From: Shinella sp. SUS2
GTDB lineage: Bacteria > Pseudomonadota > Alphaproteobacteria > Rhizobiales > Rhizobiaceae
Length of the DNA stretch: 64,000 bases
Direction of reading: 5' to 3'
Assembly (NCBI RefSeq): GCF_001262505.1
Contig: NZ_KQ410740.1
Span: forward strand, 62,001-126,000
This document shows positions 11,435-57,676 of the stretch, piece after piece (positions within the stretch are counted from its first letter, which is position 1; every line of letters begins with the position of its first letter). A program made the position numbers and the translations under genes. The notes under the pieces are model-generated. The model saw only the letters and a program-made list of their open reading frames with translations, was not told where the DNA came from and searched no databases.

Positions 11435-11923
11435 ATGACACTCCCTCCGAACAACGCAGAGGTGACGTTTCGCCGGGTAACGTCTGCGAATGTCTCTGAA
11501 ATTTGTGAGCTGAGCGAAACCCTTTCGGAAGAACAGAGGGATTTTGTCGCGGATAACGGGACCTCGATTGCCGAGGGATTCTGTTCGCAATCGGCCTGGT
11601 TCCGCGGCGTTTATGCGGATGACGTCCTGATCGGTTTCGTCATGGTGCATGATGGATCGGATTGGGATGACGGGATCGACTGCCCTGGCCCGTATCTATG
11701 GCGTTTCATGATCGCCAGGCCTTTTCAAGGCCAGGGCTTTGGGAAGCAGGCAATCTCCAAGATCGCCACGCGCCTTCGGTCACAGGGTGTTCGGGAGCTC
11801 TACACGAGCTACAGCCTTGGGCCTGGCAGCCCGCAGGCATTTTATGAGAAGCTCGGCTTTTCTCCCACTGGCGGGATGTTCGACGAAGAGGTCGAAGTCG
11901 TCCTTCAGCTCGCGGAGCGGTGA
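11435..11923 (+). CDS. GNAT-family N-acetyltransferase
   Basis: 162 residues with a GNAT fold. Acetyl-CoA motif A is at residues 91-103 (FMIARPFQGQGFG, the Q/R-x-x-G-x-G pattern at Gln98 to Gly103), and motif B is near residues 130-145 (SPQAFYEKLGF). Family members acetylate amines, including spermidine, but the substrate here cannot be read. The 231 bp upstream (11204-11434) are AT-rich compared with the surroundings and hold no gene. The Shine-Dalgarno region is weak (GAGAAAGAAAAAAC). The drop in GC and the IS remnants immediately downstream suggest that the gene sits at the edge of transferred DNA. Confidence 0.78.
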   Translation: MTLPPNNAEVTFRRVTSANVSEICELSETLSEEQRDFVADNGTSIAEGFCSQSAWFRGVYADDVLIGFVMVHDGSDWDDGIDCPGPYLWRFMIARPFQGQGFGKQAISKIATRLRSQGVRELYTSYSLGPGSPQAFYEKLGFSPTGGMFDEEVEVVLQLAER

Positions 11924-12079
11924 ACGCGCAGCCGACAGCTTGCATGCCTGATGGCACTCCTCTTCGTGCGCTTTGAGAAAGGCGGTTGGCCCCGGTCAGC
12001 GCGATCGCTTGCGTGATATCAAGGCACCCGCAACGCTGCCGCCCGCATGGTGGGCGGACACCCGGGCTTGCCACGAGCA

Positions 12080-12420
12080 CCGAGGACAAGCTTTGTATCT
12101 TTGCGGGTACCGATCGGACCTGCAAATTCGTCTTCGCGAGATTGGTGCCACGCGCCACCGGCGCCGCAGCCCGGCTATTCCTCGATGAAATCGTCGCCGT
12201 CGTGCCCTACTGCATCCATACATACCTACCGACAATGGCATCGGTTCGCCGATCTGCCGAAGAAGTGCTCCAGTCCGACTGCCAGATGGCGTGGGCATCC
12301 ATACGACCGCAGCTGACAAAGCCCAATCATCCATGGACCAACGACCAGGTCGAACGGATGAACCGAACCATCAAGGAAGCGACCGCGAAGCGGGATCAGT
12401 CTCCACCGCTATCATGAAGC
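12080..12420 (+). pseudogene. IS481-type transposase remnant
   Basis: Degenerate transposase integrase-core fragments. The readable piece in one frame is ending LTKPNHPWTNDQVERMNRTI followed by KEATAKR, the hallmark C-terminal motif of rhizobial IS481-family transposases. Upstream pieces (TDRTCKFVFARL, VPYCIHTYLP then TDNG in another frame) match the catalytic-core spacing but are interrupted. No intact open frame or terminal repeats were seen, so this is a dead fragment. Confidence 0.65.
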
Positions 12421-12511
12421 CCGAAGACAGATCGCCGACCTTTGCAAGGTCCGCTTGCGAGACAAGATCGCCGCGCTAGAGTTGCACAGCGATTCGCCAT
12501 CAGGAGGAAGA

Positions 12512-12715
12512 ATGCGTCAGCAGACAAAACCGTTCACCGTTGAAATCAAGCAATCCCGGAAGCTGAAGCCCAGCAACCAAAAACCGTCGATCTGGGGAAA
12601 ACTGGATTTGAGCATTGCGGAAGACCACGTTGCCTCCGCGGCTCCGATGATCGAGCCAGCCACAGCCGAGAGCAGCGAACGGCTCCAAGCTTCGCAGACG
12701 CACTCAAGCTCTTAA
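12512..12715 (+). CDS. Small hypothetical protein in IS-rich region
   Basis: 67-residue frame beginning MRQQTKPFTVEIKQSRK, basic at the N terminus with acidic/Ser-rich C-terminal half. No family recognised. AGGAGG lies 4 bp before the ATG, so translation is plausible. It sits between two dead transposase fragments. The upstream in-frame extension (to 12455) also reads as plausible protein, so the start could be earlier or the frame could be a fragment of a larger gene. Confidence 0.4.
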   Translation: MRQQTKPFTVEIKQSRKLKPSNQKPSIWGKLDLSIAEDHVASAAPMIEPATAESSERLQASQTHSSS

Positions 12716-12964
12716 CCCCTCAACCATGCTTCGCGCACGCCCACGGCTTCCGGCGGCAGTTCGACAAGAAGTGCCGCTGCGCGCTGCACATGGAAGGTCG
12801 CCCAAAGGCGACTCACATGTTGTCAGCCGCCATTTTGAGCGGGATTGAAGATCGCGGGCATGATCTAACCGTGCTTGAGTTCGTGGCATCTCCGAGACCC
12901 TGGCAACGAAGGCCACTACCGAGCTGCATGCCATAGCTAAGCCATTGAAAGGTTGGAACGTGCG

Positions 12965-42892: not shown

Positions 42893-43831
42893 ATGCGTCT
42901 TATGCCAAAGTTGCTCGTCGGCACCGCACTGGCCGCCGCGATCGCCATGCCCGCAGCCGCCAAGGACCTCAACAAGATCGGCATCTCGGTCGGCCTGCTC
43001 GGCAACCCGTTCTTCGTCGCCACCATCAAGGGCATCGAGGACCGGGCCAAGGAGATCAACCCGAATGTCGAAGTGATCTCCGTTTCGGCCGACTATGACC
43101 TCAACAAGCAGGTCTCCCAGGTCGACAGCTTCATCGCCGCCGGCGTCGATATCATCATGCTGAACGCTGTCGATGCGAAGGCCATCGCCCCCGCCGTAAA
43201 GAAGGCGCAGGCCGCCGGCGTCGTCGTCGCCGCCTTCGACGTGTCGGCGCCCGGCGCCGACGTCACCGTCATGACCAACAACGTCAAGGCGGGTGAAGAG
43301 GCCTGCAACTACATCGCCGACAAGCTCGGCGGCAAGGGCGACGTGGTCATCATCAACGGCCCGGCCTCTTCCTCGATCCTCGAGCGTGTTGAGGGCTGCA
43401 AGGGCGCGCTCGGCAAGCATGCCGACATCAAGATCCTGTCCGACGACCAGAACGGCCAGGGCTCGCGTGACGGCGGCCTTGCAGTGATGCAGGGGCTGCT
43501 GACCCGCTTCGACAAGATCGACGCCGTCTTCGCCATCAACGACCCGACCGCGATCGGCGCCGAGCTCGCCGCCAAGCAGCTGAACCGCAGCGAATTCTTC
43601 TTCACCGCGGTCGACGGCGCGCCCGACATCGAGACCTCGCTTGCCAGCGGCAATTCCATGATCAAGGCCTCCGCCTCGCAGGATCCCTATGTCATGGCTG
43701 GCCAGGCGCTGCAGCTCGGCGTTGAGGTGCTGAAGGGCAACAAGCCGGCCGAACCCGTCGTGCTGCTCGACCCGCAGCTCATCACGGCCGACAACATCAA
43801 GGACTACAAGGGCTGGACCGCAGCTCGCTAA
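42893..43831 (+). CDS. ABC sugar transporter periplasmic binding protein
   Basis: 312 residues with a Sec signal (MRLMPKLLVGTALAAAIAMP, cleavage near AAAKD). The peripla_BP_4 fold is seen in ISVGLLGNPFFVATIKGIED, AGVDIIMLNAVDAKAIAPAV and VFAINDPTAIGAELAAKQ. AAGGAGG precedes the ATG. Binds the sugar imported by the two preceding subunits; the 3-epimerase downstream suggests a ketose such as ribulose, xylulose, psicose or tagatose. Confidence 0.88.
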   Translation: MRLMPKLLVGTALAAAIAMPAAAKDLNKIGISVGLLGNPFFVATIKGIEDRAKEINPNVEVISVSADYDLNKQVSQVDSFIAAGVDIIMLNAVDAKAIAPAVKKAQAAGVVVAAFDVSAPGADVTVMTNNVKAGEEACNYIADKLGGKGDVVIINGPASSSILERVEGCKGALGKHADIKILSDDQNGQGSRDGGLAVMQGLLTRFDKIDAVFAINDPTAIGAELAAKQLNRSEFFFTAVDGAPDIETSLASGNSMIKASASQDPYVMAGQALQLGVEVLKGNKPAEPVVLLDPQLITADNIKDYKGWTAAR

Positions 43832-43916
43832 ACACACCTCCCAGAGGCCGGGCGCATTCGCGCAAGCGGTGTGCCCGGCCGCCCCTTGCTTCATTCCTTT
43901 CAGAGAGCGGCCCGTT

Positions 43917-44813
43917 ATGTCGAAAATTGGTGTCCATTCCTTCGTCTGGAGCGCTGGCTCTTCGCAGGGCGAGCTTGAGAAAGCGCTCGAGAACACCCAT
44001 CAGCTCGGCTACAAGCTCATCGAGTTCTCCTATCTGAACCCTCGCCAGGTCGACGTGAAATGGCTGTCCCGCCGGCTTGAGGAACTCGGTCTCGACGTCG
44101 CGATCAGCATGGGCCTGCCGCCGGAGGGCGACATTTCGAGCGCCGATCCGGCAATCGTCACCCATGGCGTCGATATCCTCGACCGGGCCGTTGCGCTGGT
44201 GCGCGACCTCGGCGGCACGAAACTCGCCGGCATCCTCAGCTCCGCCCACGGCAAGCAGGAGCACAGCCTATCGAGAAAGGGCTGGGACACGAGCGTTGCC
44301 GCGCTCTCCAAGGTAGCGGAGCGGGCCAAGGCAGCCGGCGTCACGCTCAATCTCGAAATCGTCAACCGCTTCGAGAGCAACATGCTGAACACCGCCGCAC
44401 AGGGCATGGCCTACATCCGCGATACCGGCGCCTCGAATGTCCTTCTGCACCTCGACACGTTCCACATGAACATCGAGGAAGCCGATGTGGGCCTTGCCAT
44501 CCGCCACGCGGCGGACAAGATCGGCTACCTGCATATCGGCGAGAGCCATCGCGGCTATCTCGGCACCGGCACGATCGACTTCACGGCGATCTTCGATGCG
44601 CTCACCGCCATCGGCTGGGACGACTCCGTTACCTTCGAATCCTTCTCCACGACGATCGTCGACAAGGACCTTTCGCTGAAGACGGCGATCTGGCGCAATC
44701 TGTGGGACGACAATGTCGCCCTCGCCCGCCATGCACACCGCTTCATCGAGCTCGGCCTGGAGACCGCGCGGCTCAAGCAGGCGCTCGTCCAAGAGGCGCA
44801 TCTGCCCGGTTAG
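43917..44813 (+). CDS. Ketose 3-epimerase (L-ribulose/D-tagatose 3-epimerase family)
   Basis: 298-residue TIM-barrel sugar epimerase. Mn ligands Glu147 (LNLEIVNRFESN), Asp180 (LLHLDTFHMN), His206 (YLHIGESHRG) and Glu241 (TFESFS) are spaced 33, 26 and 35 residues apart, exactly as in Pseudomonas cichorii D-tagatose 3-epimerase. The whole protein closely resembles the Mesorhizobium loti L-ribulose 3-epimerase. Start at ATG 43917. It inverts C3 of free ketoses and ends the rightward sugar operon, converging on the Pot operon 5 bp away. Confidence 0.9.
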   Translation: MSKIGVHSFVWSAGSSQGELEKALENTHQLGYKLIEFSYLNPRQVDVKWLSRRLEELGLDVAISMGLPPEGDISSADPAIVTHGVDILDRAVALVRDLGGTKLAGILSSAHGKQEHSLSRKGWDTSVAALSKVAERAKAAGVTLNLEIVNRFESNMLNTAAQGMAYIRDTGASNVLLHLDTFHMNIEEADVGLAIRHAADKIGYLHIGESHRGYLGTGTIDFTAIFDALTAIGWDDSVTFESFSTTIVDKDLSLKTAIWRNLWDDNVALARHAHRFIELGLETARLKQALVQEAHLPG

Positions 44814-44818
44814 GCGGA

Positions 44819-45676
44819 TCACGCCTTGCCGCGCTGCACCACGACGCTCAGCAGCGCCAGCGCCCCCGACCCCACCATCAGGAAGAACGAGACGGCGTTC
44901 AGCACCGGCGTCGAACCGACCTTCACCATGCGGTCGTACATGGTGATGGTCAGCGGCGCATCGGAGCCGACCAGCATCAGCGTCGTGTTGAAATTCTCGA
45001 AGGAGACGAGGAAGGCGACGACGAAGGCGGAGAACAGCGCGGGCATCAGATAGGGCAGCGTCACCGTCATCAGCACGCGCAGCCGCGTCGCGCCGAGATT
45101 GAGCGCGGCTTCCTCCAGCGAGATGTCGAATTTTCGAAGGCGCGCGGCGATGACCAGCGAGGTGATGGTCGTCAGGAACGAGAACTGGCCGAGGATGACG
45201 AGGAACAGGCCGGGGCGCAGAAAATCCCACTCGATGCCAAAGGTTTCTTCGAGGCCGTTGGCGATCATGCTGGCGAAGACGAGGATCGAGATGCCGAGGA
45301 TGACGCCGGGAATGACCAGGGGCACGATCATCAGGATGTAGAAGAAATTCTTGGCCGGAAACTGCTTTCTCTCGAAGAGGAAGGCGTTGCAGGTGCCGGC
45401 GGCGACGGCGAGCGCGGAGACGATCACGCCGATATAGAGCGAGTTTTCGAGACCGCGCAAAAGGCGCCGGTCGTGGAAAATGCCGATCTTCGGCTCGGTG
45501 CTGCTGAAGAACCAGTCGAGCGTGAAACCGTTCCAGGGCAATGCTGGGAACATAGAATCGTTGAAGGCGAACATGCCGGCGGCAAAGAGCGGCGCGGCGA
45601 GGTAGGCGAGGAACGCCAGCATGTAGCCGCGATAGAGCCATTGCAGCAGGGGCGATTGCGGGGCCGCGACGTTCAT
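44819..45676 (-). CDS. ABC transporter permease, PotC type
   Basis: 285 residues with six helices (LLQWLYRGYMLAFLAYLAAP at the N terminus) and the coupling loop EEAALNLGATRLRVLMTVTL. Belongs to the spermidine/putrescine-type ABC class. ATG 45676 starts 2 bp after the PotB stop. Last gene of the leftward operon of binding protein, ATPase and two permeases. Confidence 0.88.
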   Translation of the reverse strand: MNVAAPQSPLLQWLYRGYMLAFLAYLAAPLFAAGMFAFNDSMFPALPWNGFTLDWFFSSTEPKIGIFHDRRLLRGLENSLYIGVIVSALAVAAGTCNAFLFERKQFPAKNFFYILMIVPLVIPGVILGISILVFASMIANGLEETFGIEWDFLRPGLFLVILGQFSFLTTITSLVIAARLRKFDISLEEAALNLGATRLRVLMTVTLPYLMPALFSAFVVAFLVSFENFNTTLMLVGSDAPLTITMYDRMVKVGSTPVLNAVSFFLMVGSGALALLSVVVQRGKA

Positions 45677-45678
45677 GG

Positions 45679-46548
45679 TCAGTCCTTTGCGACGGTGGAG
45701 GCGAGGCTCTGGCCCGTCAGCCGCAGGCCGAACCAGACGACGAACGAGGTGAAGACGAGCAGCAGCACGCCGAAGGTCGCGCCGGATTCCCAGTTGTAGC
45801 GCGTCACGAACTGTTCGTAGATCTGCTCGGTGAACCACATGCTGTTCTTGCCGCCGAGCAGGATGGGCGTGAGATAGCTGCCCGCCGTCAGCATGAAGAC
45901 GATGATGCAGCCGGCGACGATGCCCGGCATGGCATAGGGCACGACGATGCGGCGGAAGACGGTGAAGCGGCTGCCGCCGAGATTGTAGCCCGCCTCGATC
46001 AGCGAATTGTCCATGCCGTCGAGCGTCGAGACGAGCGGCACGATCATGAAGAGCACGACCGTATACACGAGGCCCATGACGACGGTGGCGTCGTTGTAGA
46101 GCAGTTCCACCGGGCCGCTGACGAGGCCGATCTTCTGCAGGAAGCTGGAGACAAGGCCGGTCTCGCGCAGGATGACGATCCAGCCGAAGGCGCGCACGAG
46201 GTCGCTCACCCAAAGCGGGATGAGGCACATCAGGAAGAGTGCGGCGCGCGAGCGGCGCTGGGCGATTTTTGCGATGTAATAGGCGACGGGAAAACCGACG
46301 GCGAGCGCCATGGCGGTGACGAGGATCGACATCCAGGCCGTGCGCAGCAGCGTGTTCCAGTAGATCGGCTCCGAGAGGAAGGCGATGTAGTTCGCAAAGC
46401 CGAACGTGTATTCGCCAGGCCCCACCTTTTCACGCAGCGAGATATAGCCGATGCCGAGCTGCGGCAGGATGATCAAAAGCGCGATCCACAGCGCGAAGGG
46501 GGCAAAGAGCAGGATGAAGGAGAGTTTTCCGATGTCCGTGCGTGCCAT
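45679..46548 (-). CDS. ABC transporter permease, PotB type
   Basis: 289 residues with six helices and the PotB-type loop IEAGYNLGGSRFTVFRRIVV. ATG at 46548 is preceded by GAGGTGAG at good spacing; a GTG at 46557 in the same frame overlaps the ATPase stop and is less likely. Partner of the PotC-type permease that follows. Confidence 0.88.
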   Translation of the reverse strand: MARTDIGKLSFILLFAPFALWIALLIILPQLGIGYISLREKVGPGEYTFGFANYIAFLSEPIYWNTLLRTAWMSILVTAMALAVGFPVAYYIAKIAQRRSRAALFLMCLIPLWVSDLVRAFGWIVILRETGLVSSFLQKIGLVSGPVELLYNDATVVMGLVYTVVLFMIVPLVSTLDGMDNSLIEAGYNLGGSRFTVFRRIVVPYAMPGIVAGCIIVFMLTAGSYLTPILLGGKNSMWFTEQIYEQFVTRYNWESGATFGVLLLVFTSFVVWFGLRLTGQSLASTVAKD

Positions 46549-46553
46549 TGCTC

Positions 46554-47627
46554 TCACCTCGCAACGGAAAAGGCGCGGCCGTGGTTCTGGCTCCAGCCGA
46601 TCCCGACCGTTTCGCCCGGCGCGACCTTGACCGAGCCGTCCATCACCGCCTGGCCGACCTCGACCAGATGGCCGTTCGCCATGCGCACGAGGATGCGGCT
46701 GCTTGCACCGTTGAAGAGCAGGCTTTCGACGGTGCCTTGAAGCGTGTTCTCGCTGCCCGCGCCGATCGAAATCACCTCCGGGCGCACGAAAAGCTCGACC
46801 GGGCTTCCGGCCGCAATGCGCGCGTCACCGGCAAAGGCGATCGCCTCGCCGCCACCGTCGATCGCCACGCGCACCTTGCCGTCGGCGAGCGAAAGCGCGC
46901 GGCCGGGCCAGCGGTTGCTGTCGCCGACAAAGCCCGCAACGAAGCCGCTCTTCGGGTTGTTGTAGAGTTCCTGCGGCGCACCGATCTGCTCGAACTGGCC
47001 GGCGTTCATGACGGCGACGTTGTCGGACATCAAAAGCGCTTCCGACTGGTCGTGGGTGATGTAGAGGAAGGTCGTCTCGAACTGGTGCTGGAGCTGTTTC
47101 AGCTCTATCTTCATGCGCTCGCGCAGTTTCAGGTCGAGCGCGCCGAGCGGTTCGTCGAGCAGCAGCACATCCGGCTCCAGCACCATGCAGCGGGCAATCG
47201 CGATGCGCTGCTTCTGGCCGCCGGAGAGCTGGGAGACCTGCTTTTCCGCCGTGCCGGGCAGACCGACGCGATCGAGCACCGCCGCCACCTTGCGGGTAAT
47301 ATCGGCCTTGTTCTCGCCGCGGCAGCGCAGGCCGTAGGCGATGTTCTCGCCGACATTCATCATCGGGAAGAGCGCGAGATGCTGGAACACCATCTTGACG
47401 GGCCGCTTGTTCGGCGGCGTCGAAAGCACGGACTGCCCCTTGATGCGGATATCGCCGCTCGTCGGCGTCTCGAAGCCGGCGATCATGCGCATCAGCGTGG
47501 TCTTGCCGCAGCCCGACGGGCCGAGGATCGAGAAGAAGGATCCGCGCGGGACGTTGAAGGACACGCTGTTGACGGCGGTATAGGCGCCGAAGCGCTTCAC
47601 CAGGCTTTCGCATTGAAGATCGTGCAT
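46554..47627 (-). CDS. ABC transporter ATP-binding protein, PotA type
   Basis: 357 residues. Walker A GPSGCGKTT, signature QLSGGQKQRIAIARCMVLEP, Walker B LLLDEPLGALD and H-loop YITHDQSEAL are intact, followed by the C-terminal TOBE domain (about 280-357; ALSLADGKVRVAIDGGG). Motor of the Pot-type importer. Confidence 0.9.
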   Translation of the reverse strand: MHDLQCESLVKRFGAYTAVNSVSFNVPRGSFFSILGPSGCGKTTLMRMIAGFETPTSGDIRIKGQSVLSTPPNKRPVKMVFQHLALFPMMNVGENIAYGLRCRGENKADITRKVAAVLDRVGLPGTAEKQVSQLSGGQKQRIAIARCMVLEPDVLLLDEPLGALDLKLRERMKIELKQLQHQFETTFLYITHDQSEALLMSDNVAVMNAGQFEQIGAPQELYNNPKSGFVAGFVGDSNRWPGRALSLADGKVRVAIDGGGEAIAFAGDARIAAGSPVELFVRPEVISIGAGSENTLQGTVESLLFNGASSRILVRMANGHLVEVGQAVMDGSVKVAPGETVGIGWSQNHGRAFSVAR

Positions 47628-47721: not shown

Positions 47722-48795
47722 TCAGTTGGACGTCGCGGCCTTGATGCGCTCCAGCGCCTTGCCTTCCATGTCCTCGAGCCCCGCCGGGATATTGGCGAAG
47801 AACTTGAGGTTGGCGAGGTCCTTCTCGTCGAAGGCGGCGTTGACGGCGGCCTTCTTGTCGTCGGGCAGGAGATCGATGCCGTTGCTGACGGCGGCGATGG
47901 CGCCCGTTGAATCCGACATCAGCTTGACGATCTCGGGCTTCATGACGAAGTTGATCCACTTGTAGGCGGCATCGTCAGCCTCGCCCTTGCGCGGGATGAC
48001 GAAGGTGTCGATCCAGGCGAGCGCGCCGGTTTCCGGCGGCACGTAGACGAGGTTCTTGTTCTGGCCGAAGAGCTTGAAGGCCGTGGAATCCCAGGCTTCC
48101 GAGACGACGACTTCGCCCGAGAGAAGCAGCGTCGACAGGTCGTCGCCGCCGTTCCAGTAAGTCTTGACGTTGTCCTTGCAGGCGATCAGCTTTTCCGTCA
48201 CCTCGTCGAGCATCGTCTGGTAGGCGGCCTTGTCGGCATAGAGCGCGAACGGATCCTTGCCGAGCGAGAAGGCCGTGCCAAGCAGGATCGTGCGGCGTAG
48301 GCGCATCGAGGTGCGGCCCTTGTATTCGGGATTGCAGAGGTCGCCCCAGCCCTTGACACCAGGCGCCTTGGAAACGTCCGCAACGATGCCGGACGTGCCC
48401 CACTGGTGCGGCACGGCATAGAGCTGGCCGTCGATGGTGGCATTGGCCTTCACGCCTTCAAGAAGGTTGGGCGCAAGGTTTGCCGTCTCGATCTTCGAGA
48501 GGTCGAGCGGCTTGTAGATGTTGTACTCCTGCTGGGCCGCGAAGATGCGGTCATGGCTCGGCTGGGCAAGGTCGTAACCGGCGCCGCCGGTCGCCCGGAG
48601 CTTTGCGATCATCTCCTCGTTGTTGGAGAGCGTCACCTCGACCGTGATGTCGGGGTTCGCCTCCTCGAAGAGCTTGATGACGTTGTCGGGTGCATAACCG
48701 CCCCAGGTGAGCAGGCGCAGGGTTTCGGCCTGTGCGGTGCCTGCCATGAACAGGGCGAGCGCCGTCGTCGCGGCGAGCGCGAATGTCGATTTCAT
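47722..48795 (-). CDS. ABC transporter periplasmic binding protein, PotD-like
   Basis: 357 residues with a Sec signal (MKSTFALAATTALALFMAGT, cleavage near AQAET). The PotD fold appears in LRLLTWGGYAPDNVIKLFEE, YAVPHQWGTSGIVADV and IDTFVIPRKGEADDAAYKWI. GAGGAGA lies before ATG 48795. The ligand need not be a polyamine: this family also carries amino acids, sugar acids and betaines. A MocR-type direct repeat lies 147-177 bp upstream, linking uptake to the enolase/ALDH genes. Confidence 0.85.
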   Translation of the reverse strand: MKSTFALAATTALALFMAGTAQAETLRLLTWGGYAPDNVIKLFEEANPDITVEVTLSNNEEMIAKLRATGGAGYDLAQPSHDRIFAAQQEYNIYKPLDLSKIETANLAPNLLEGVKANATIDGQLYAVPHQWGTSGIVADVSKAPGVKGWGDLCNPEYKGRTSMRLRRTILLGTAFSLGKDPFALYADKAAYQTMLDEVTEKLIACKDNVKTYWNGGDDLSTLLLSGEVVVSEAWDSTAFKLFGQNKNLVYVPPETGALAWIDTFVIPRKGEADDAAYKWINFVMKPEIVKLMSDSTGAIAAVSNGIDLLPDDKKAAVNAAFDEKDLANLKFFANIPAGLEDMEGKALERIKAATSN

Positions 48796-48941
48796 GCTGT
48801 TCTCCTCTTCCGTTTGGCTGTTGAAAATCGCCTTTTTCCGGCGTTCTTTTCTGCTGAGGGCCATCTCACTCCCGGCGATGACGCTCTCATTCCCGATTTC
48901 GAGCCGCTGGCATCAAAGGACGAGATTGGCTTGCCCGAAAG

Positions 48942-48972
48942 GTCCATTATCTCCTTGCCGTAAGACCATTAT
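48942..48972. promoter_or_regulatory. Direct repeat upstream of the Pot operon, putative MocR operator
   Basis: GTCCATTAT (48942-48950) and GACCATTAT (48964-48972) are same-direction copies 22 bp apart (13-bp gap), in the 182-bp gap upstream of the PotD-like gene. The same architecture recurs at 51671-51701 beside the mocR gene. MocR proteins are known to bind direct repeats. Confidence 0.6.
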
Positions 48973-48977
48973 GACGC

Positions 48978-50465
48978 TCAGCTTATCTTCGCCGTCAGGC
49001 TTTTCGTGCGCGTGTAGCTGCGCAACGCGGCAAAGCCCTTCTCTCGGCCGAAACCGGAGAGTTTGTTGCCGCCGAAGGGCACCTCGATGCCGCCGGCGAA
49101 ATATTCGTTGATGTAGACCTGGCCAGCGTCGATATCGCGCGCCATGCGGTGGGCGCGGCCGAAATCGCGTGTGTAGATGCCAGCGACGAGGCCGAAATCC
49201 GTGCCGTTCGCTACAGCGACAGCTTCCTCCTCGCTTTCAACCACCTGTACCGAGAGCACCGGTCCGAAAATCTCTTCCTGGATGACGGGATCGTCCGACT
49301 GCACCGCATCGAGGATCGTCGGTTTGAAGAACCAGCCGGAGCCGCTTTCCGGGTCCGTCGTCCGCTCGCCGCCGGCGGCGATGGTGACGCCGCGGTCGCG
49401 CGCGCCCTCGACATAGCCGGCAACCTTGTCGAGATGGGCAAGCGAGCTGAGTGCTCCGACCTGCGGGCGGCGAAGGCCATGGCCGAGCTTGAGACCGGTC
49501 GCGCGCCTGGCGAGGCGTTCGACGAGTTCCGCATGCACCCCGCGCTCGACGACGAGGCGCGAACCCGCCGAGCAGATCTGCCCAGCATTCTCGTAGATCG
49601 CGCCGAGCACGCCTTCCACGGCAGCGTCCATGTCCGCATCGGCCATGACGATGACCGGCGACTTGCCACCGAGTTCGAGCACGACGCTCGTGACGTTCGC
49701 GGCGGCCGACTGCATCACGCGGATGCCCGTCGGCACGGAGCCGGTGAAGGTGACGTGGCGCACATCCGGATGCGACACCAGCGGCCCGCCGGCCTCCGCA
49801 CCGGTGCCGGTAACGACGTTGCAGACACCGGCCGGAAGCCCGGCGCGGGAGAGAATATCGGCGAGCATCAGCGCCGTCAGCGGCGTCTGTTCGGCCGGCT
49901 TGGCGACGACAGTGCAGCCGGCGGCGAGCGCCGGGGCGATGCTGCGGGCGGCCGTCGAGAGCGGGTAGTTCCAGGGGATGATATGGCCGGTGACGCCGAC
50001 CGGCTCCTCGATGGAATAGCCGATATAGTCGGTGCCGAGCGGAAAGGTGTCGCCCTGGATCTTGTCGGCCGCGCCGGCATAATATTCGAAGCAGCGCGCC
50101 GCACCCGAGACGTCGCCTTCCGCCTCCTGCAGCGCCTTGCCGCTGTCGAGGCTTTCCACCACGGCAAGCCGCGCGGCCTCCGCCCGGATGAGTTCGGCAG
50201 CGCGCAGCAGGATCGCGCCGCGGGCGCTCGCCTTGGTGCGGCCCCAGGCGCGCTGGGCGCGGCGGGCGGCGGCGACGGCGCGGTCCACGTCGCTGCCGTC
50301 ACCGGCGGCGAAGGCATGGTAGGCGCGGGCGGAGCCGGGATCGAACGTCTCCATCGTGCGCCCGCCGGAGGCGGCGACGAAGGCGCCGTCGATGAAATGG
50401 CCTTTGGGCAGGCCGGCAAGCGTGCCGTTCGCAAAATATTCGCCGACGAGGGTGTTCGTGCTCAT
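48978..50465 (-). CDS. Aldehyde dehydrogenase
   Basis: 495-residue NAD(P)-dependent enzyme. Base Glu is in VLELGGKSPVIV and nucleophile Cys in NAGQICSAGSR, with IIPWNYPLSTAARS in the cofactor domain and QEEIFGPVLSVQVV. Resembles betaine/amino-aldehyde dehydrogenases. Starts 1 bp after the enolase-superfamily stop, so the two enzymes are translationally linked. Probably oxidises an aldehyde formed downstream of the enolase-type step. Confidence 0.88.
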   Translation of the reverse strand: MSTNTLVGEYFANGTLAGLPKGHFIDGAFVAASGGRTMETFDPGSARAYHAFAAGDGSDVDRAVAAARRAQRAWGRTKASARGAILLRAAELIRAEAARLAVVESLDSGKALQEAEGDVSGAARCFEYYAGAADKIQGDTFPLGTDYIGYSIEEPVGVTGHIIPWNYPLSTAARSIAPALAAGCTVVAKPAEQTPLTALMLADILSRAGLPAGVCNVVTGTGAEAGGPLVSHPDVRHVTFTGSVPTGIRVMQSAAANVTSVVLELGGKSPVIVMADADMDAAVEGVLGAIYENAGQICSAGSRLVVERGVHAELVERLARRATGLKLGHGLRRPQVGALSSLAHLDKVAGYVEGARDRGVTIAAGGERTTDPESGSGWFFKPTILDAVQSDDPVIQEEIFGPVLSVQVVESEEEAVAVANGTDFGLVAGIYTRDFGRAHRMARDIDAGQVYINEYFAGGIEVPFGGNKLSGFGREKGFAALRSYTRTKSLTAKIS

Positions 50466-50466
50466 C

Positions 50467-51570
50467 TCAATTCGCCTCGCTCATCTGGTAGCCGGCGCGC
50501 GCCAGCCACTCCGGATCGATTTCGACGCCCCAGCCGGGCTCTTCCGTCACCGTCGCCTTGCCGTCGACGATGGCATAGGGCGATTTGCGGAAGAGGCCGT
50601 CCTGCCAGGGGTAATAGTCTTCGCCCTCGATGGAGAATTCGAGATATTTGCCGGCATTCGGGATGGCGCGCAGCAGGTGCATAGTGAAGAGCGTCACCAT
50701 GGAAAGGTTGGCGGCGTGCGGCGTCACCGGAATTCCGGCGGCCTCGGCCATGCGCACCACGCGCAGCGTCCGGCTGATGCCGCCGAGATAGCAGATATCC
50801 GGCTGCACGATGTCGACGGCGCGCATCTCGATCATGCGGCGCCAGGTCGGCAGGTCGCAATCCTGCTCGCCGCCGGTGACGTCGATGTCGAGCGCCTCGC
50901 TGACCTGCCTGGTCTGTTCGAGCTCCCAATAGGGGCAGGGCTCCTCGTAATGCACGAGGCCGTTGTCCTGCATGATCCTGCCGACCTCGATGGCACGGGC
51001 GGGCGAATAGCAGGAATTGGCGTCGGCGAGCAGATCGGCTCCTTCGCCGACGGCCTTGGCGATCGTCGGGATGATCTCCTCCGTCCGGCCCGGCCATTCG
51101 TCTTCGTTGCGGCCGCACTCTGCGCCGACGCGGAACTTGAAGGCGTCAAAACCGTATTCGCCGCGCAGGCGCTTGAAGCGTTCGGCCTCGTCGGCCGGCG
51201 TGATGTCGCGCTTCATCGAGGAAGCGTAGGCGCGCAGCGGGCCGGCCGACCCGCCGAGCAGTGCCGCGACCGGCTTGCCAGCCTTTTTGCCGCGCAGGTC
51301 CCAGATCGCCGTGTCGAGACCGCACATGGCGCGGCAGAGATAGGAACCCGGAAACTTGTGCTCACGCTCGAAAATGCGGTCGAGATGATCGTCGAGATCG
51401 ACGATCTCGGTGCCGAGCGAATAGGGCGCGACCTGGCGGTGCAGCACCTCTGACGTGATGTCGGCATTGTAGGTCGAGACCTGGCCCCAGCCGGTCGCGC
51501 CGGTCTCGTCGGTGATGCGGACAAAGCCGACATAGCGGTTTGAGAAGGTCTCGATGCGTTTGATCTTCAT
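50467..51570 (-). CDS. Enolase-superfamily enzyme, mandelate-racemase type (racemase/dehydratase)
   Basis: 367 residues. Metal ligands are Asp183 (LLADANSCY), Glu209 (HYEEPCPYWE) and Glu235 (TGGEQD). The general-acid/base dyad is Asp258-His285 (QPDICYLGG, VTPHAANLS). The usual KxK base motif on strand two is Lys145-Phe-Arg147 (FKFRVG), so the second Lys is Arg. This combination could support epimerisation or dehydration of an alpha-hydroxy or alpha-amino acid; no known substrate group is recognised with confidence. ATG 51570 fits. First gene of an operon with the ALDH. Confidence 0.82.
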   Translation of the reverse strand: MKIKRIETFSNRYVGFVRITDETGATGWGQVSTYNADITSEVLHRQVAPYSLGTEIVDLDDHLDRIFEREHKFPGSYLCRAMCGLDTAIWDLRGKKAGKPVAALLGGSAGPLRAYASSMKRDITPADEAERFKRLRGEYGFDAFKFRVGAECGRNEDEWPGRTEEIIPTIAKAVGEGADLLADANSCYSPARAIEVGRIMQDNGLVHYEEPCPYWELEQTRQVSEALDIDVTGGEQDCDLPTWRRMIEMRAVDIVQPDICYLGGISRTLRVVRMAEAAGIPVTPHAANLSMVTLFTMHLLRAIPNAGKYLEFSIEGEDYYPWQDGLFRKSPYAIVDGKATVTEEPGWGVEIDPEWLARAGYQMSEAN

Positions 51571-51670
51571 GGCGGTCCGGTCTGCTGTTGGGCGAAAGCG
51601 TCTTGCAAGCGATGGGCTCTTGACGCCGCGAACTGGTCCGACAATCATCGGAAAAACTTCGGGCGAGAAG

Positions 51671-51701
51671 GTCCACTTTGCTTTTCGTAGCGGACCATTA
51701 T
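51671..51701. promoter_or_regulatory. Direct repeat between enolase gene and mocR, putative MocR operator
   Basis: GTCCACTTT (51671-51679) and GACCATTAT (51693-51701) lie 22 bp apart in the same orientation with a 13-bp gap, 31 bp before the mocR start and 101 bp before the enolase start. Same spacing and orientation as at 48942-48972, indicating one regulator. Confidence 0.62.
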
Positions 51702-51731: not shown

Positions 51732-53252
51732 ATGGTAAAATATCCGGGCGGCGCGCTGCTGCCCACGCTGCAATTCGACCGCACCTCCCGAACGCCGATC
51801 AGTGCCCAGCTCTGCACGGCACTACGCGAGATGATTCTCTCGGGCGAACTCCAGCCCGGCGAACGCCTGCCCTCCAGCCGCACGCTGGCGAAAGATCACG
51901 GCGTTTCCCGCACCACGGCGATCAGCGTCTACGAACAGCTTGCTGCGGAAGGGCTGATCCGGTCGAGCATCGGTGCCGGGGCCTATGTCGCCGAAACGTT
52001 GCGCGACGGCCGGCCCGCCGCCACCGCGGCAAGCCCGGCCGGAGACGAGATCCGCAGCCCGCCGCGCCTCGCGCAGCTCAGCGCGGACGCCTCCGAACAC
52101 TACTTTCCCCGCCTCGCGCACCCTGAAAACCCACGGCCCTTCATCACCGGCATTCCGGCCTTCGACGAGTTCCCGATGGCGCTCTGGGCGAGCATGGTGG
52201 CACGTTACTGGCGCCAGCCGCGCAACCTCCTGCTCGGCTACCCACCGGCCGAAGGGCTGATGGAATTGCGCCGGGCCGTCGCGATGCATCTGCGCGCCAA
52301 CCGCGGCATCACCTGCGAACCCGAACAGGTTTTCATCTTCAACGGCGCGCAGGACGCCTTCAACCGCATCGGTAATACCCTGCTCGATCCCGGCGATACG
52401 GTCTGGATCGAGAATCCCGGCGCGATCGGCGCGCGCAACAGCCTGATTTCCTCGGGTGCGCGGCTGGTGCCGCTCAGCATCGACGAGGAGGGCATCAATG
52501 TCGCCGAGGGGCTGGAGGTCGCGCCGGATTTCCGCCTCGCCTTCGTGACGCCCGCCCACCAGCACCCGCTCGGCGTGACGATGAGCCTGCAACGCCGCTT
52601 CGAATTGTTGCGCGCGGCCGAAAGGGCAGGTGCCTGGATCATCGAGGACGACTATGTCGGCGAGTTCCACTATGCCGGCCATCCGCCGCCGACGCTGAAG
52701 AGCGTCGATACGTCGGGCCGCGTCATCTATGTCGGCAGCTTTTCGAAAACGCTGTTCGCAGCCCTCCGCCTCGGCTACGTCGTCGCGCCGCCCGGTCTGG
52801 TCGATGTCTTTTGCCGCATCGCCGGAGCGACATTGCAAGGCTCGGCCGCCAGCCTGCAATCCGTCGTCGCAAGCTTTATCGAGTGTGGCCATTTCGCCAG
52901 CCATATCAGGCGCATGCGGCGGGTTTATGCCGAACGGCTCCAGGCTCTGCTCGACGGTGCGGCGACGCATATGCAGGGTGTTCTGGAAGTCGCGCCCACC
53001 GAAACCGGCTTTCACACCGTCGGGCGTCTTGCCGAGGATTTCGATGAACGCGCCGTCGCGCGCCGGGCGGCCGAGCGCAACATCCTCGTCTCGCCGATCG
53101 GCCGCTTCGCCATCACGCCCGTCCGCCAGCGCGGCCTCATCCTCGGCTTCAGCTCCGCCCCGCCGCGCATGATCGCAAGCGCGGCGGAAACGCTCGGCGC
53201 GGTCTTGAAGGACATGCGCAAGGCAGATGGCCCGAACCGTATCAGTGCGTGA
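51732..53252 (+). CDS. MocR-family regulator (GntR DNA-binding domain fused to PLP aminotransferase-like domain)
   Basis: 506 residues. The GntR winged helix (TPISAQLCTALREMILSGEL, LPSSRTLAKDHGVSRTTAIS) covers about 18-88. A fold-type I aminotransferase domain (about 120-500) follows, with the PLP lysine Lys339 in VGSFSKTLFAALRLGY. MocR proteins sense amino compounds or PLP itself and bind direct repeats. ATG 51732 follows GGGAGG. Divergent from the enolase/ALDH operon; the shared repeats indicate that it also controls the Pot operon. Confidence 0.9.
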   Translation: MVKYPGGALLPTLQFDRTSRTPISAQLCTALREMILSGELQPGERLPSSRTLAKDHGVSRTTAISVYEQLAAEGLIRSSIGAGAYVAETLRDGRPAATAASPAGDEIRSPPRLAQLSADASEHYFPRLAHPENPRPFITGIPAFDEFPMALWASMVARYWRQPRNLLLGYPPAEGLMELRRAVAMHLRANRGITCEPEQVFIFNGAQDAFNRIGNTLLDPGDTVWIENPGAIGARNSLISSGARLVPLSIDEEGINVAEGLEVAPDFRLAFVTPAHQHPLGVTMSLQRRFELLRAAERAGAWIIEDDYVGEFHYAGHPPPTLKSVDTSGRVIYVGSFSKTLFAALRLGYVVAPPGLVDVFCRIAGATLQGSAASLQSVVASFIECGHFASHIRRMRRVYAERLQALLDGAATHMQGVLEVAPTETGFHTVGRLAEDFDERAVARRAAERNILVSPIGRFAITPVRQRGLILGFSSAPPRMIASAAETLGAVLKDMRKADGPNRISA

Positions 53253-53267
53253 GACGCGCCTGGCGGC

Positions 53268-54884
53268 TCAGCACGCGTCGGCGAGGATAAGGTCAGACCC
53301 TTTTTCGCCCACCATGATGGTCGGTGCATTGAGGTTTCCCGAGGTGATGCGCGGGAACACCGAGGCGTCGACGATACGCAGCGCCTCCAGGCCATGGACG
53401 CGCAGGCGCGGATCGACAACGGACGTCGGCGCATCCGGCCCCATGGCGCAGGTGCCGCAAGGATGGAACACCGAACCGGAGCGCGCGCGGATGTCGGCAA
53501 TCAGGCCCCCATCATCCAGGATCCCGGCACCCGGGCGGATCTCCTGTTCGATGATCTCCCGCATCGGGCCGGTCCGTGAAAGGCGCCGCAGGAAATGCGC
53601 GGCCTCCAGCAGCTCCTGCACATCCTCTTCCGTCGAAAGATAGTTCGGCTGGATTTCCGGCGCGGCGAAGGGGTCAGCGGAACGGATGGCGAGTTGGCCA
53701 CGACTTGTCGGGTGGCAGTTCGACACGCCGACGAGGAAGCCGGGGAAAGGATCGGGGCTCATCAATGCGCGCCGACCGGGAATGGCACGGGTATAGCTGA
53801 CGGGCGAGAAATAGAGCTGCATGTTGGGGCGCGCGCGCTCCGGGCTTGTGCGAAAGAACCCGCCGCCCTGGTTCACGCTGAGCGAGAGCGGGCCGCTGCG
53901 CGTCAGCACGTAGCGCAGCCCCACCCGCAGCCGTCCCCACCACGGCCGCAGCACATCGTTGAGCGTCGGCTGCCGGCTCCTGTAGAGATGGTCGAAGCCG
54001 ATATGGTCTTGCAGGTTCCGCCCCACGGCGGGCGCCGCGTGAACGACATCGATGCCGTGACGCTTCAAGAGGGCCGGCTCGCCGACGCCGGAAAGCTGGA
54101 GCAGCTGAGGCGTGTTGACCGCACCGGCCGACAGGATGACCTCGCGCCGCGCGCGAACCTGCCGAACCACCCCACCCTGCCGGTATTCCACACCGACCGC
54201 CCGCTTTCCCTCAAAAAGCACACGGGTCGCATGCGCAGCCTTGATCACCCGCAGGTTCGACCGCCTGCGGGCGGGAGCGAGATAAGCCGTCGCCGTCGAG
54301 CAGCGAAAACCGTCACGCGTCGTGATCTGGTAGATGCCGACGCCCTCCTGGGTCGCGCCGTTGAAATCCAAATTGCGCGACAGGCCGGCCTCGACGCCGC
54401 CGGCAAGATAGTTCCGGCAGAGCGGATGCACGACCCCCTCTATGTTGGTAACGGTCAGCGGCCCGTCCTTGCCGCGCCACGTGTCGGCACCCGCAAGATT
54501 GTCCTCCATGCGCCGGAAGAGTGGCAGGACATCCGCATAGCCCCATCCCGGATTGCCAAGCGCGCGCCAGCCGTCGAAATCTTCGGCCTGCCCGCGGATG
54601 AACACCATCGCGTTGATCGAGCTGGACCCGCCGATGACCTTGCCCCGCGGCCAGTAGGACTGGCGGCCGTCGAAACCGGGCACCGGCTCCGTCAGATACT
54701 TCCAGTTCAGCGTCTTGTGATAGAAGGCCTTGCCGTAGCCGATCGGCATGCGCACCCAGAAATTCAGATCGCTGCCGCCAGCCTCCAGCAGTGCCACGCG
54801 ATAGCGCCCACCGTCGGAAAGGCGGTTCGCCAGCACGCAGCCCGCCGAGCCCGCACCGACGATCACATAATCGAACTCATCCAT
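53268..54884 (-). CDS. GMC-family FAD-dependent alcohol oxidoreductase
   Basis: 538 residues. FAD fold DYVIVGAGSAGCVLANRLSD at the N terminus, signature 1 GKVIGGSSSINAMVFIRGQ, signature 2 GAVNTPQLLQLSGVG, and active-site His in VFHPCGTCAMG. Oxidises an alcohol to an aldehyde. ATG 54884 preferred; TTG 54911 would add nine residues. Converges on mocR with 15 bp between stops, so whether it belongs to the MocR pathway is uncertain. No MocR-type repeat was seen upstream of it. Confidence 0.86.
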   Translation of the reverse strand: MDEFDYVIVGAGSAGCVLANRLSDGGRYRVALLEAGGSDLNFWVRMPIGYGKAFYHKTLNWKYLTEPVPGFDGRQSYWPRGKVIGGSSSINAMVFIRGQAEDFDGWRALGNPGWGYADVLPLFRRMEDNLAGADTWRGKDGPLTVTNIEGVVHPLCRNYLAGGVEAGLSRNLDFNGATQEGVGIYQITTRDGFRCSTATAYLAPARRRSNLRVIKAAHATRVLFEGKRAVGVEYRQGGVVRQVRARREVILSAGAVNTPQLLQLSGVGEPALLKRHGIDVVHAAPAVGRNLQDHIGFDHLYRSRQPTLNDVLRPWWGRLRVGLRYVLTRSGPLSLSVNQGGGFFRTSPERARPNMQLYFSPVSYTRAIPGRRALMSPDPFPGFLVGVSNCHPTSRGQLAIRSADPFAAPEIQPNYLSTEEDVQELLEAAHFLRRLSRTGPMREIIEQEIRPGAGILDDGGLIADIRARSGSVFHPCGTCAMGPDAPTSVVDPRLRVHGLEALRIVDASVFPRITSGNLNAPTIMVGEKGSDLILADAC

Positions 54885-54952
54885 CTGCCGCTTCACTCCC
54901 GGACCCTTCAAGGCTCCCCGTGCCTTGAAACCCCTTCCTATCGTGAACCGGA

Positions 54953-55240
54953 TTGCAGGGCAGTGTCCATTTCGATCCGATTGACATACCAGTCCGCACC
55001 CCCGGCCCGGCCAGATCGAAGATCAGCACGCGAACGGCAAATGGATGGATGCAGGCCAAAGGGTCCCATGCCGGCGAGACCGAAGAATTCGCCATCGTCG
55101 TTTCCGGCCTTTTCGAACTGGTCATGGAAGGCATGACGCGCGCCTGCAATCCCGGTGACCACCTTGTCGTGGAAGCCGGCGTCGAGCACGCCATCCGCGT
55201 CATCGAACCGGGTCGGCTCGTGCTGATCGGCAGGACGTAA
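54953..55240 (+). CDS. Small cupin-domain protein, start uncertain
   Basis: Up to 95 residues. The C-terminal two-thirds read as a single cupin barrel (SHAGETEEFAIVVSGLFELV, NPGDHLVVEAGVEHAIRV). The first 30 residues carry no signal and begin with a weak TTG at 54953; a shorter protein is possible. The lone metal-binding His in VEHAIRV is present; the first motif lacks the usual HxH pair. Function unknown. Lies divergently between the GMC gene and bioB. Confidence 0.55.
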   Translation: MQGSVHFDPIDIPVRTPGPARSKISTRTANGWMQAKGSHAGETEEFAIVVSGLFELVMEGMTRACNPGDHLVVEAGVEHAIRVIEPGRLVLIGRT

Positions 55241-56941: not shown

Positions 56942-56951
56942 CTATCTATAA
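56942..56951. promoter_or_regulatory. BioR box 1 upstream of bioY
   Basis: CTATCTATAA matches the published rhizobial BioR consensus TTATMKATAA at 9 of 10 positions. Lies 31-40 bp before the bioY start. Confidence 0.6.
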
Positions 56952-56984: not shown

Positions 56985-56994
56985 TTATAGATAA
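56985..56994. promoter_or_regulatory. BioR box 2 upstream of bioY
   Basis: TTATAGATAA is an exact match to the BioR consensus. It lies immediately after the bioR stop and 74-83 bp before the bioY start, 43 bp from box 1. Confidence 0.75.
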
Positions 56995-57663
56995 TTATCC
57001 TGGAATCTCGTAAGTCTCTCTGGGATCAGCATTTTTTACAGACGGCTTCCGCTTGCCGATCCAGCCGACATGGCGCGCCAATGTCGAGCAAGCGAAATCA
57101 ATCCGCCCTTCCCGCAGAGCATTCAAAATCGCACGATGGTCATGATCGGTGCGAGCTTCCCAGTCCCGACGCCAGGCGGCAAACAGAAACCGCGCGCTGG
57201 CCGCCTGCAGGTCATCGATCGTTCGAAGCAAGCGCGGCATACGGCAGGGCGCTAGGATAAGATGGTGGAACCGACGGTTTGCAAGCTCCCAGTCCCGCAC
57301 ATTCGTTGCACAATCCCCGAGCCGGTTAACCTCTTCTGCTTCCTCGATAATAAAGCGCGTCAAGTTGGGTGCGGCGTGGCGCAGCGCCAATATCTCCAGG
57401 CTCGCCCGCATCTCGGCAACCTCGCGCAATTCGGCGACGTCGAAATCCGTGACACGAAACCCCCGCCAGGGCTCATTCTCCGCCAACCCCTGCGTTTGCA
57501 ATGCCCGGAAAGCCTCGCGCACCGGCACATGACTGGCCCCGAATTCGGCGGCGATATGGTCCTGCCGCAGCCGCGCGCCCGGGGGAATCTCGCCCGTGAT
57601 GATCCGGCCGGCAAGAATACGGGCAATGCGTTCGGAAAGAGTTTCGTCTGCAGTGGTTGACAT
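56995..57663 (-). CDS. bioR: Biotin repressor BioR (GntR family)
   Basis: 222 residues. The N-terminal GntR winged helix (LSERIARILAGRIITGEIPP, RLRQDHIAAEFGASHVPVRE) is followed by an FCD-type alpha-helical domain (residues about 80-210). The adjacent bioY-bioB genes and three TTATAGATAA-type boxes identify it as BioR, the alphaproteobacterial biotin regulator. The third box, 4 bp before its start, indicates autoregulation. Confidence 0.88.
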   Translation of the reverse strand: MSTTADETLSERIARILAGRIITGEIPPGARLRQDHIAAEFGASHVPVREAFRALQTQGLAENEPWRGFRVTDFDVAELREVAEMRASLEILALRHAAPNLTRFIIEEAEEVNRLGDCATNVRDWELANRRFHHLILAPCRMPRLLRTIDDLQAASARFLFAAWRRDWEARTDHDHRAILNALREGRIDFACSTLARHVGWIGKRKPSVKNADPRETYEIPG

Positions 57664-57666
57664 GAA

Positions 57667-57676
57667 TCATAGATAA
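57667..57676. promoter_or_regulatory. BioR box upstream of bioR
   Basis: TCATAGATAA differs from the BioR consensus at one base and lies 4 bp before the bioR start codon, suited to repression of its own gene. Confidence 0.55.

Follow-up and report, generated by a model that had tools for sequence, protein, structure and literature searches.

The closest described relatives of the locus reported here are regulators of the MocR family. In the table of operator layouts of a family survey, two direct boxes followed by an inverted one (-> -> <-) are the commonest arrangement, with 103 regulogs and 245 regulons. Among the rows for two-box and three-box direct-type layouts, the next most frequent is a pair of direct boxes without a third, with 70 regulogs and 186 regulons (PMC5320631). 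In the rhizopine system of Sinorhizobium and Rhizobium, MocR is described as the likely reader of two direct moc-boxes (PMC10107442). These are AAAGYGGYTCT-like sequences in target promoters, and the regulator gene is divergent from its target, as in our locus. TauR, listed in the survey as an activator, is paired with direct repeats CTGGACYTAA (PMC5320631). GabR and EnuR have the same domain architecture as the regulator studied here, and an amine effector is described as forming an external aldimine in them (PMC8739950).

The regulator is encoded at 51732..53252 (+) in the window, the 64,000-nucleotide stretch of Shinella sp. SUS2 DNA that was analysed. It has 506 residues and the architecture of a MocR protein, a GntR winged helix-turn-helix domain and an aminotransferase-like domain. 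The Pfam models GntR (residues 26-86) and Aminotran_1_2 (167-461) both score above gathering score. The lysine in its SFSKT motif, K339, aligns with the lysine in TFSKS of GabR, a position common to both proteins, and is invariant in six orthologues. Judged by this alignment, K339 is the predicted PLP-type lysine expected of a MocR protein. The best-scoring NCBIfam model is that of the rhizopine MocR (NF052281), although its 449.7 bits fall below the cut-off of 650. The scores for GabR (NF052285; 254.6 bits, cut-off 600) and EhuR/EnuR (158.9 bits, cut-off 480) are also below their cut-offs. The PdxR model (NF052282) gives 377.4 bits, above its cut-off of 320. We rejected this assignment all the same, as the surrounding genes do not fit. 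None of the seven other scanned regulon proteins is a named PLP-synthesis enzyme; remote targets are possible.

The genes around mocR encode an importer and several enzymes. An enolase-superfamily (MR/MLE) enzyme lies at 50467..51570 (-; Pfam MR_MLE_N and MR_MLE_C), and an aldehyde dehydrogenase (ALDH; 48978..50465, -; Pfam Aldedh) begins right behind it. The ALDH is betaine-aldehyde-dehydrogenase-like and scores under every equivalog cut-off shown. Family models further identify a PotD/PotF-like substrate-binding protein (47722..48795, -), a PotA-like ATPase (46554..47627, -), a PotB/PotH-like permease (45679..46557, -) and a PotC/PotI-like permease (44819..45676, -, with its start codon at 45676). 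On the other side of mocR, they identify a choline-dehydrogenase-like GMC oxidoreductase (53268..54884, -). These targets differ from those of the rhizopine MocR (PMC10107442) and of GabR and EnuR. None of the eight scanned regulon proteins resembles the named taurine genes, and the transporter and enzymes come from other families than those of the TauR regulon. The content is not among the regulons described in the sections of the survey that the analysis covered (PMC5320631). The nearest solved chains to the enolase-superfamily enzyme are 3u4f, 3tcs, 3t8q and 3t9p, all deposited under family names only.

Literature searches gave no paper linking this gene set with a MocR regulator; the survey's supplementary tables and RegPrecise were outside their scope, and earlier cataloguing is possible. 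A search for MocR with mandelate racemase found none, and one combining enolase superfamily, polyamine and MocR gave nothing on this system, as judged by title and listing. Searches on the four solved chains and on the host species of the enolase relatives gave, by title, unrelated papers only.

Two direct repeats lie upstream of these genes. The first-pass annotation had claimed that they match in order, orientation and 22-bp period, and this is borne out, with both on the - strand. The transporter-side repeat is ATAATGGTC-N13-ATAATGGAC (48942-48972), and the mocR-side repeat is ATAATGGTC-N13-AAAGTGGAC (51671-51701). The pattern AWARTGGWC-N13-AWARTGGWC has two matches in the window and none in any of 100 dinucleotide shuffles. 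The same annotation had proposed a genome search for AWARTGGWC with a 22-bp period. In the 7,005,767-base genome, this search returned just the same two matches, and a backwards control pattern returned none. The pattern was derived from the two sites themselves, so independent evidence was built. A matrix from orthologous sites is the fairer test, and we trained one on 31 orthologous mocR/enolase sites with the window's genus left out. It scores 33.4 at the potD site (48923-48972), 20.5 at the mocR site (51652-51701) and 9.6 at a third site (54946-54995). The next score in the window is -1.6, and the top score in 25 simulated windows is 7.2.

Orthologous loci were collected by a protein search with the MocR, from which 80 loci were fetched, and by a family search, which gave 15 genomes at E up to 1e-150. 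Besides the window, 33 loci were retained (L003-L023, L099-L106 and L108-L111); L098 and L107 were left out before counting, being judged duplicates of L004 and L013. The nearest named one is L004 from Shinella curvata. Nearly all 33 have mocR divergently oriented to an enolase-superfamily gene belonging to the same group, and genes for an ALDH, a transporter and a GMC oxidoreductase lie close by. Another 59 loci (L024-L082, at most 45% identity) were scanned with strict and loose patterns only, which gave no match, and do not enter the matrix or panel counts. The literal 9-mer pattern occurs in one of the 80 fetched MocR loci, L004, and was set aside as the conserved unit, whereas a looser and longer operator is kept.

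For the panel scan, each of the 33 loci was scored by a matrix that left that locus out, with a threshold of 6. The 632,385 bp contain 74 distinct matches above it, against one in the reversed-sequence control. Sites at mocR/enolase account for 33, present in every locus. By script, the transporter is preceded by a site in 27 loci, or 28 with one assigned by hand: the site at 14895 in L101 scores 47.5, coincides in part with the annotated start of an OppA-like ORF and was taken as the operator of that ORF. The remaining matches comprise seven before GMC genes, one before a second MR/MLE gene in L006, and six elsewhere. These six include the L101 site and another at 13539 in L105, which precedes a split GMC gene. 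In L012, a site scoring 16.7 lies before an ORF without assigned identity. Five of the 33 loci have no assignable transporter site above 6 (L010, L012, L020, L021, L108 or L111, depending on how L012 is read). Loci of the L010-L023 type differ in their transporter, and not all of these could be assigned.

Three kinds of transporter follow the operator: a close Pot type, a diverged Pot-like type, whose PotA and PotB are 28-41% identical, and an OppA type, assigned from sequence rather than by family search. The predicted operator is therefore retained when the transporter is exchanged.

Alignment of the sites indicated a longer operator than the direct repeat of the first-pass annotation. Its consensus is AATTGGyCT, 22 bp on aaaRTGGACCTTA, then gACCAaT. 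The core is TGGyN, 22 bp on aaaRTGGACCTTA, and an inverted NNCCA at +17. We examined the spacing in 33 divergent intergenic regions anchored on box 2, the best conserved box. This set includes the window and leaves out L019, where the enolase-superfamily gene is not divergent; L019 is included in the panel and in the CCA offset counts. At -22, TGG is present in 25 of the 33 anchored sites and YGGY in 30, compared with means of 0.26 and 0.43 at other offsets. The inverted CCA is found at +17 in 22 sites, with a mean of 0.71 elsewhere. It is also found at +17 in 20 of 28 transporter sites.

These counts bear on whether the repeats are a chance likeness in AT-rich intergenic DNA, or are kept merely by shared ancestry. 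The related loci are not independent, and the literal pattern is found in just one of 80, as such an origin would allow. However, spacings other than 22 bp are not equally frequent in the anchored sites, and the reversed control gives a single match against the 74 of the panel. The same motif also precedes different genes of one genome, non-orthologous transporters and remote orphan potD genes. We regard this explanation as extremely improbable. The predicted operator is a pair of direct boxes spaced at a 22-bp period, in most cases joined by an inverted box at +17, and accompanies this MocR and gene set across genomes.

The resulting layout, a direct pair of TGG boxes spaced by about two helical turns plus an inverted box, places the operator in the -> -> <- class of MocR operators. 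The layout is identical to that of the published class, which is likewise described with spacings of whole helical turns and with TGT or TGG in most motifs (PMC5320631). Box 2 (RTGGACCTTA) resembles the TauR repeat. The rhizopine moc-boxes as described are 11 bp long and 13 bp apart, which gives a nominal period of 24 bp, unlike the 22 bp in the window (PMC10107442). EnuR also differs, its operator being described as an inverted repeat (PMC8739950).

In the window, the full three-box layout is present at potD only. All of its operators lie on the - strand. The transporter operator has box 1 (ATAATGGTC) at 48964..48972 and box 2 (ATAATGGAC, then CTT) at 48942..48950, both defined by the repeat pattern and the matrix. 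Its inverted box 3 (AGCCAAT, +17) is at 48925..48931. The mocR/enolase operator has box 1 (ATAATGGTC) at 51693..51701, assigned by the repeat pattern and the conservation of TGG and YGGY at -22, and box 2 (AAAGTGGAC, then CTT) at 51671..51679, assigned by the repeat pattern and the matrix. Its box 3 (GAAGT, 51656-51660) is degenerate. The inverted box is missing from the earlier description, as are two further elements, a fourth box at mocR and the third site scored by the matrix.

The fourth box is an inverted GACCA at 51634..51638, at +39 (17 + 22) in the mocR/enolase operator. Its ACCA is kept in all seven congeners that have the locus, and box 3 is degenerate there throughout the genus. 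CCA at +39 occurs in nine of 34 mocR/enolase sites (the window, L003-L008, L100 and L106), which are related loci and do not represent nine independent events, and in two of 28 transporter sites. Within the genus, the divergent operator carries a fourth box, giving -> -> <- <-. This layout is absent from the ten in the table of the MocR survey (PMC5320631).

The third operator (54946..54995, -) lies before the GMC oxidoreductase gene. It consists of TGGTA (54987-54991) and, 22 bp on, TGGAC (54965-54969), with a degenerate box 3. In the seven congeners with the locus, the DNA upstream of the GMC gene cannot be aligned except for this block, a CTGGTA-like sequence and, 22 bp on, ATGGA. Model R1, which was built from 33 sites of other genera, misses the site when run on the window's genome with E up to 10, although it reports its counterparts in G299, G301 and G308 at E of 0.25-0.72. 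In the panel, only seven of the 28 loci that have a GMC gene score above 6 there. We regard the third operator as genuine but weak.

We also compared the distribution of the motif with that of the MocR. The genus set comprises 21 genomes. This MocR is encoded in seven of them (E up to 1e-100), and all seven have at least two R1 matches at the locus at E up to 1. The 14 non-carriers give four scattered single matches, the best at E 0.39. Among 297 genomes of the family, the MocR is present in 24 (E up to 1e-105). R1 matches at E up to 0.05 are found in 22 of these 24, a partly circular count since several carriers supplied training sites. They are found in 17 of the 273 non-carriers, a count that is not circular; the E-value by itself, a rough guide for R1, predicts about 14. 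Two carriers, G001 and G161, whose MocR proteins are 41% and 49% identical, have no match at E 0.05. Among the non-carriers, two matches are below 1e-3. The one in G065 (4.5e-4) is beside a 36%-identical MocR, and no MocR was found within 15 kb of the one in G118 (7.3e-4). The predicted motif tracks this MocR across genomes.

Two strong matches far from mocR are each followed, after about 150 bp, by an isolated potD homologue. One is at G046:C1:944418 (E 2.8e-7), before a homologue 62% identical to that of the window; the other is at G258:C39:105052 (E 2.6e-4), before one 65% identical. The search was not steered to potD; these matches are the nearest thing to a passed prediction.

The locus genes co-occur, and co-occurrence alone does not single out the MocR. 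The operators could be genuine and yet be recognised by a different regulator, for instance a second MocR paralogue, with the local MocR merely nearby. The genome does encode a second MocR-type protein (39% identity, on C22), and genes that travel together cannot fully separate the candidate regulators. However, most strong matches in the MocR-carrying genomes of the family directly flank mocR, also where the gene order is different, with mocR adjoining potD in L109, L110 and L123-L128. In addition, the 14 congeners without this MocR are also without sites at E below 0.39. A different regulator is therefore improbable.

In all likelihood, the repeats are operators of the adjacent MocR, and this one regulator governs four units: mocR itself, enolase-ALDH, the Pot importer and the GMC oxidoreductase. 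The first-pass annotation had proposed one MocR for the importer, the enolase-superfamily enzyme, the ALDH and itself. This proposal is supported by the operator being kept at mocR/enolase in 33 of 33 loci and at the transporter in 27, and by the motif being present in 22 of 24 carriers versus 17 of 273 non-carriers. The operators very probably form one switch for use of a nutrient. Binding by the protein, its effector and the sign of regulation are inferred.

A head-to-tail MocR dimer would contact both direct boxes from the same side of the helix, and the inverted box would add a contact. An amine effector, either the imported compound or a product of it, would form an external aldimine with PLP held by K339, the signal expected from accounts of related systems (PMC8739950, PMC10107442). 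The effector would change DNA binding and so turn on the uptake and oxidation genes. Boxes 1 and 2 sit 31-60 bp before the mocR start codon, and MocR therefore probably limits its own synthesis. The rhizopine-system mocR is described as constitutively expressed (PMC10107442), which speaks against assuming autorepression here. A scan for the sigma-70 consensus placed no promoter on the boxes; its single match, at 51620-51648 (+), is at chance level. A first reading had put -10 and -35 elements of mocR in the GC-rich stretch that separates box 2 from mocR, with a conserved GCAATA by box 1. It is unproven, and the case does not depend on it.

Alternatively, MocR could run the same regulon as a plain repressor whose action the effector relieves, the mode described for EnuR. 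EnuR operators are reported to overlap the core promoter (PMC8739950). Only 18 bp separate the operator from the enolase-superfamily start in L010 and L011, where it must therefore overlap the promoter. In the window, however, the distances from operator end to gene start are 128 bp for potD, 82 bp for the enolase-superfamily gene and 62 bp for GMC, enough for activation from upstream. A deletion of at least 42 bp that takes in a proposed moc-box is reported to abolish mocB promoter activity in the nearest relative studied (PMC10107442). Plain repression is a substantial possibility, though the less probable one. Because loss of the distal box region abolishes promoter activity in the relative and the operators end 62-128 bp before the structural genes, our analysis somewhat favours activation of the structural operons over simple derepression.

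The partner genes, namely the Pot or Opp importer, GMC oxidoreductase, ALDH and, in 23 of the 33 orthologous loci, a DAO-family flavin oxidase, are consistent with an amine or amino alcohol as substrate. The oxidase is nearest to pipecolate-oxidase and aminophosphonate-oxidoreductase models, under their cut-offs. A close copy is absent from the window's genome, where the best protein has 31% identity, and the pathway therefore differs in detail there. The enzymes of the proposed module are the GMC oxidoreductase, ALDH, MR/MLE enzyme and often the DAO-family oxidase. We tentatively suggest a wider reading, which may well prove wrong. MocR would define an undescribed catabolic module that acts on an amine-bearing alcohol, with the operator preserved through two or more replacements of the importer. 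In some Rhizobiaceae and others, the divergent promoter has two head-to-tail pairs facing each other (-> -> <- <-, 22-17-22 bp); two dimers sitting on opposite sides of this one operator could set both promoters.

The regulon is very probably real and of a known kind. The repeat pair has led to a defined regulon that is open to testing, and its motif is sharp enough to pick out remote members, the two orphan potD genes. It gives a handle on the substrate of the enolase-superfamily group near 3u4f, 3tcs, 3t8q and 3t9p. The divergent operator with its four boxes is relevant to how MocR dimers in head-to-tail arrangement serve two promoters at once. Retention of the operator despite exchange of the transporter behind it is a clear case of regulation that follows function.

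Besides the MocR-type regulator of the window, the same genome encodes a further MocR-type protein (39% identical; contig C22, 44625-46064). Two genes at 42893-44813, one for an RbsB-like binding protein and one of psicose-epimerase-like TIM-barrel type, are convergent with the Pot importer operon. No operator was found before either in the operator-matrix scan of the 64-kb window.

A GntR-type gene (56995-57663) is flanked on both sides by palindromes of the type TTATAGATAA, present in one exact and two one-mismatch copies (56985-56994, 56942-56951 and 57667-57676). This palindrome resembles the BioR box. The neighboring genes appear bioY-like and bioB-like, and together with the GntR-type gene, all of them named from their sequences, they may form a self-regulated biotin cluster.

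In the loci fetched from other genomes, several reading frames match in two pieces or only partially: those of the GMC oxidoreductase in L103 and L105, the enolase-superfamily enzyme in L019 and mocR in L023 and L134. This suggests decay or sequencing errors.

Another locus, L006, contains a second MR/MLE enzyme beside mocR (11567-12823). It has its own putative operator (12840-12889, score 31.1), so two enolase-superfamily enzymes are possible in one regulon. Putative operators are also located about 150 bp upstream of orphan potD homologues in L122 (9919-9968, plus strand) and L132 (10052-10101, minus strand), both distant from mocR. Judged from these predicted sites, the regulon would include scattered binding proteins.
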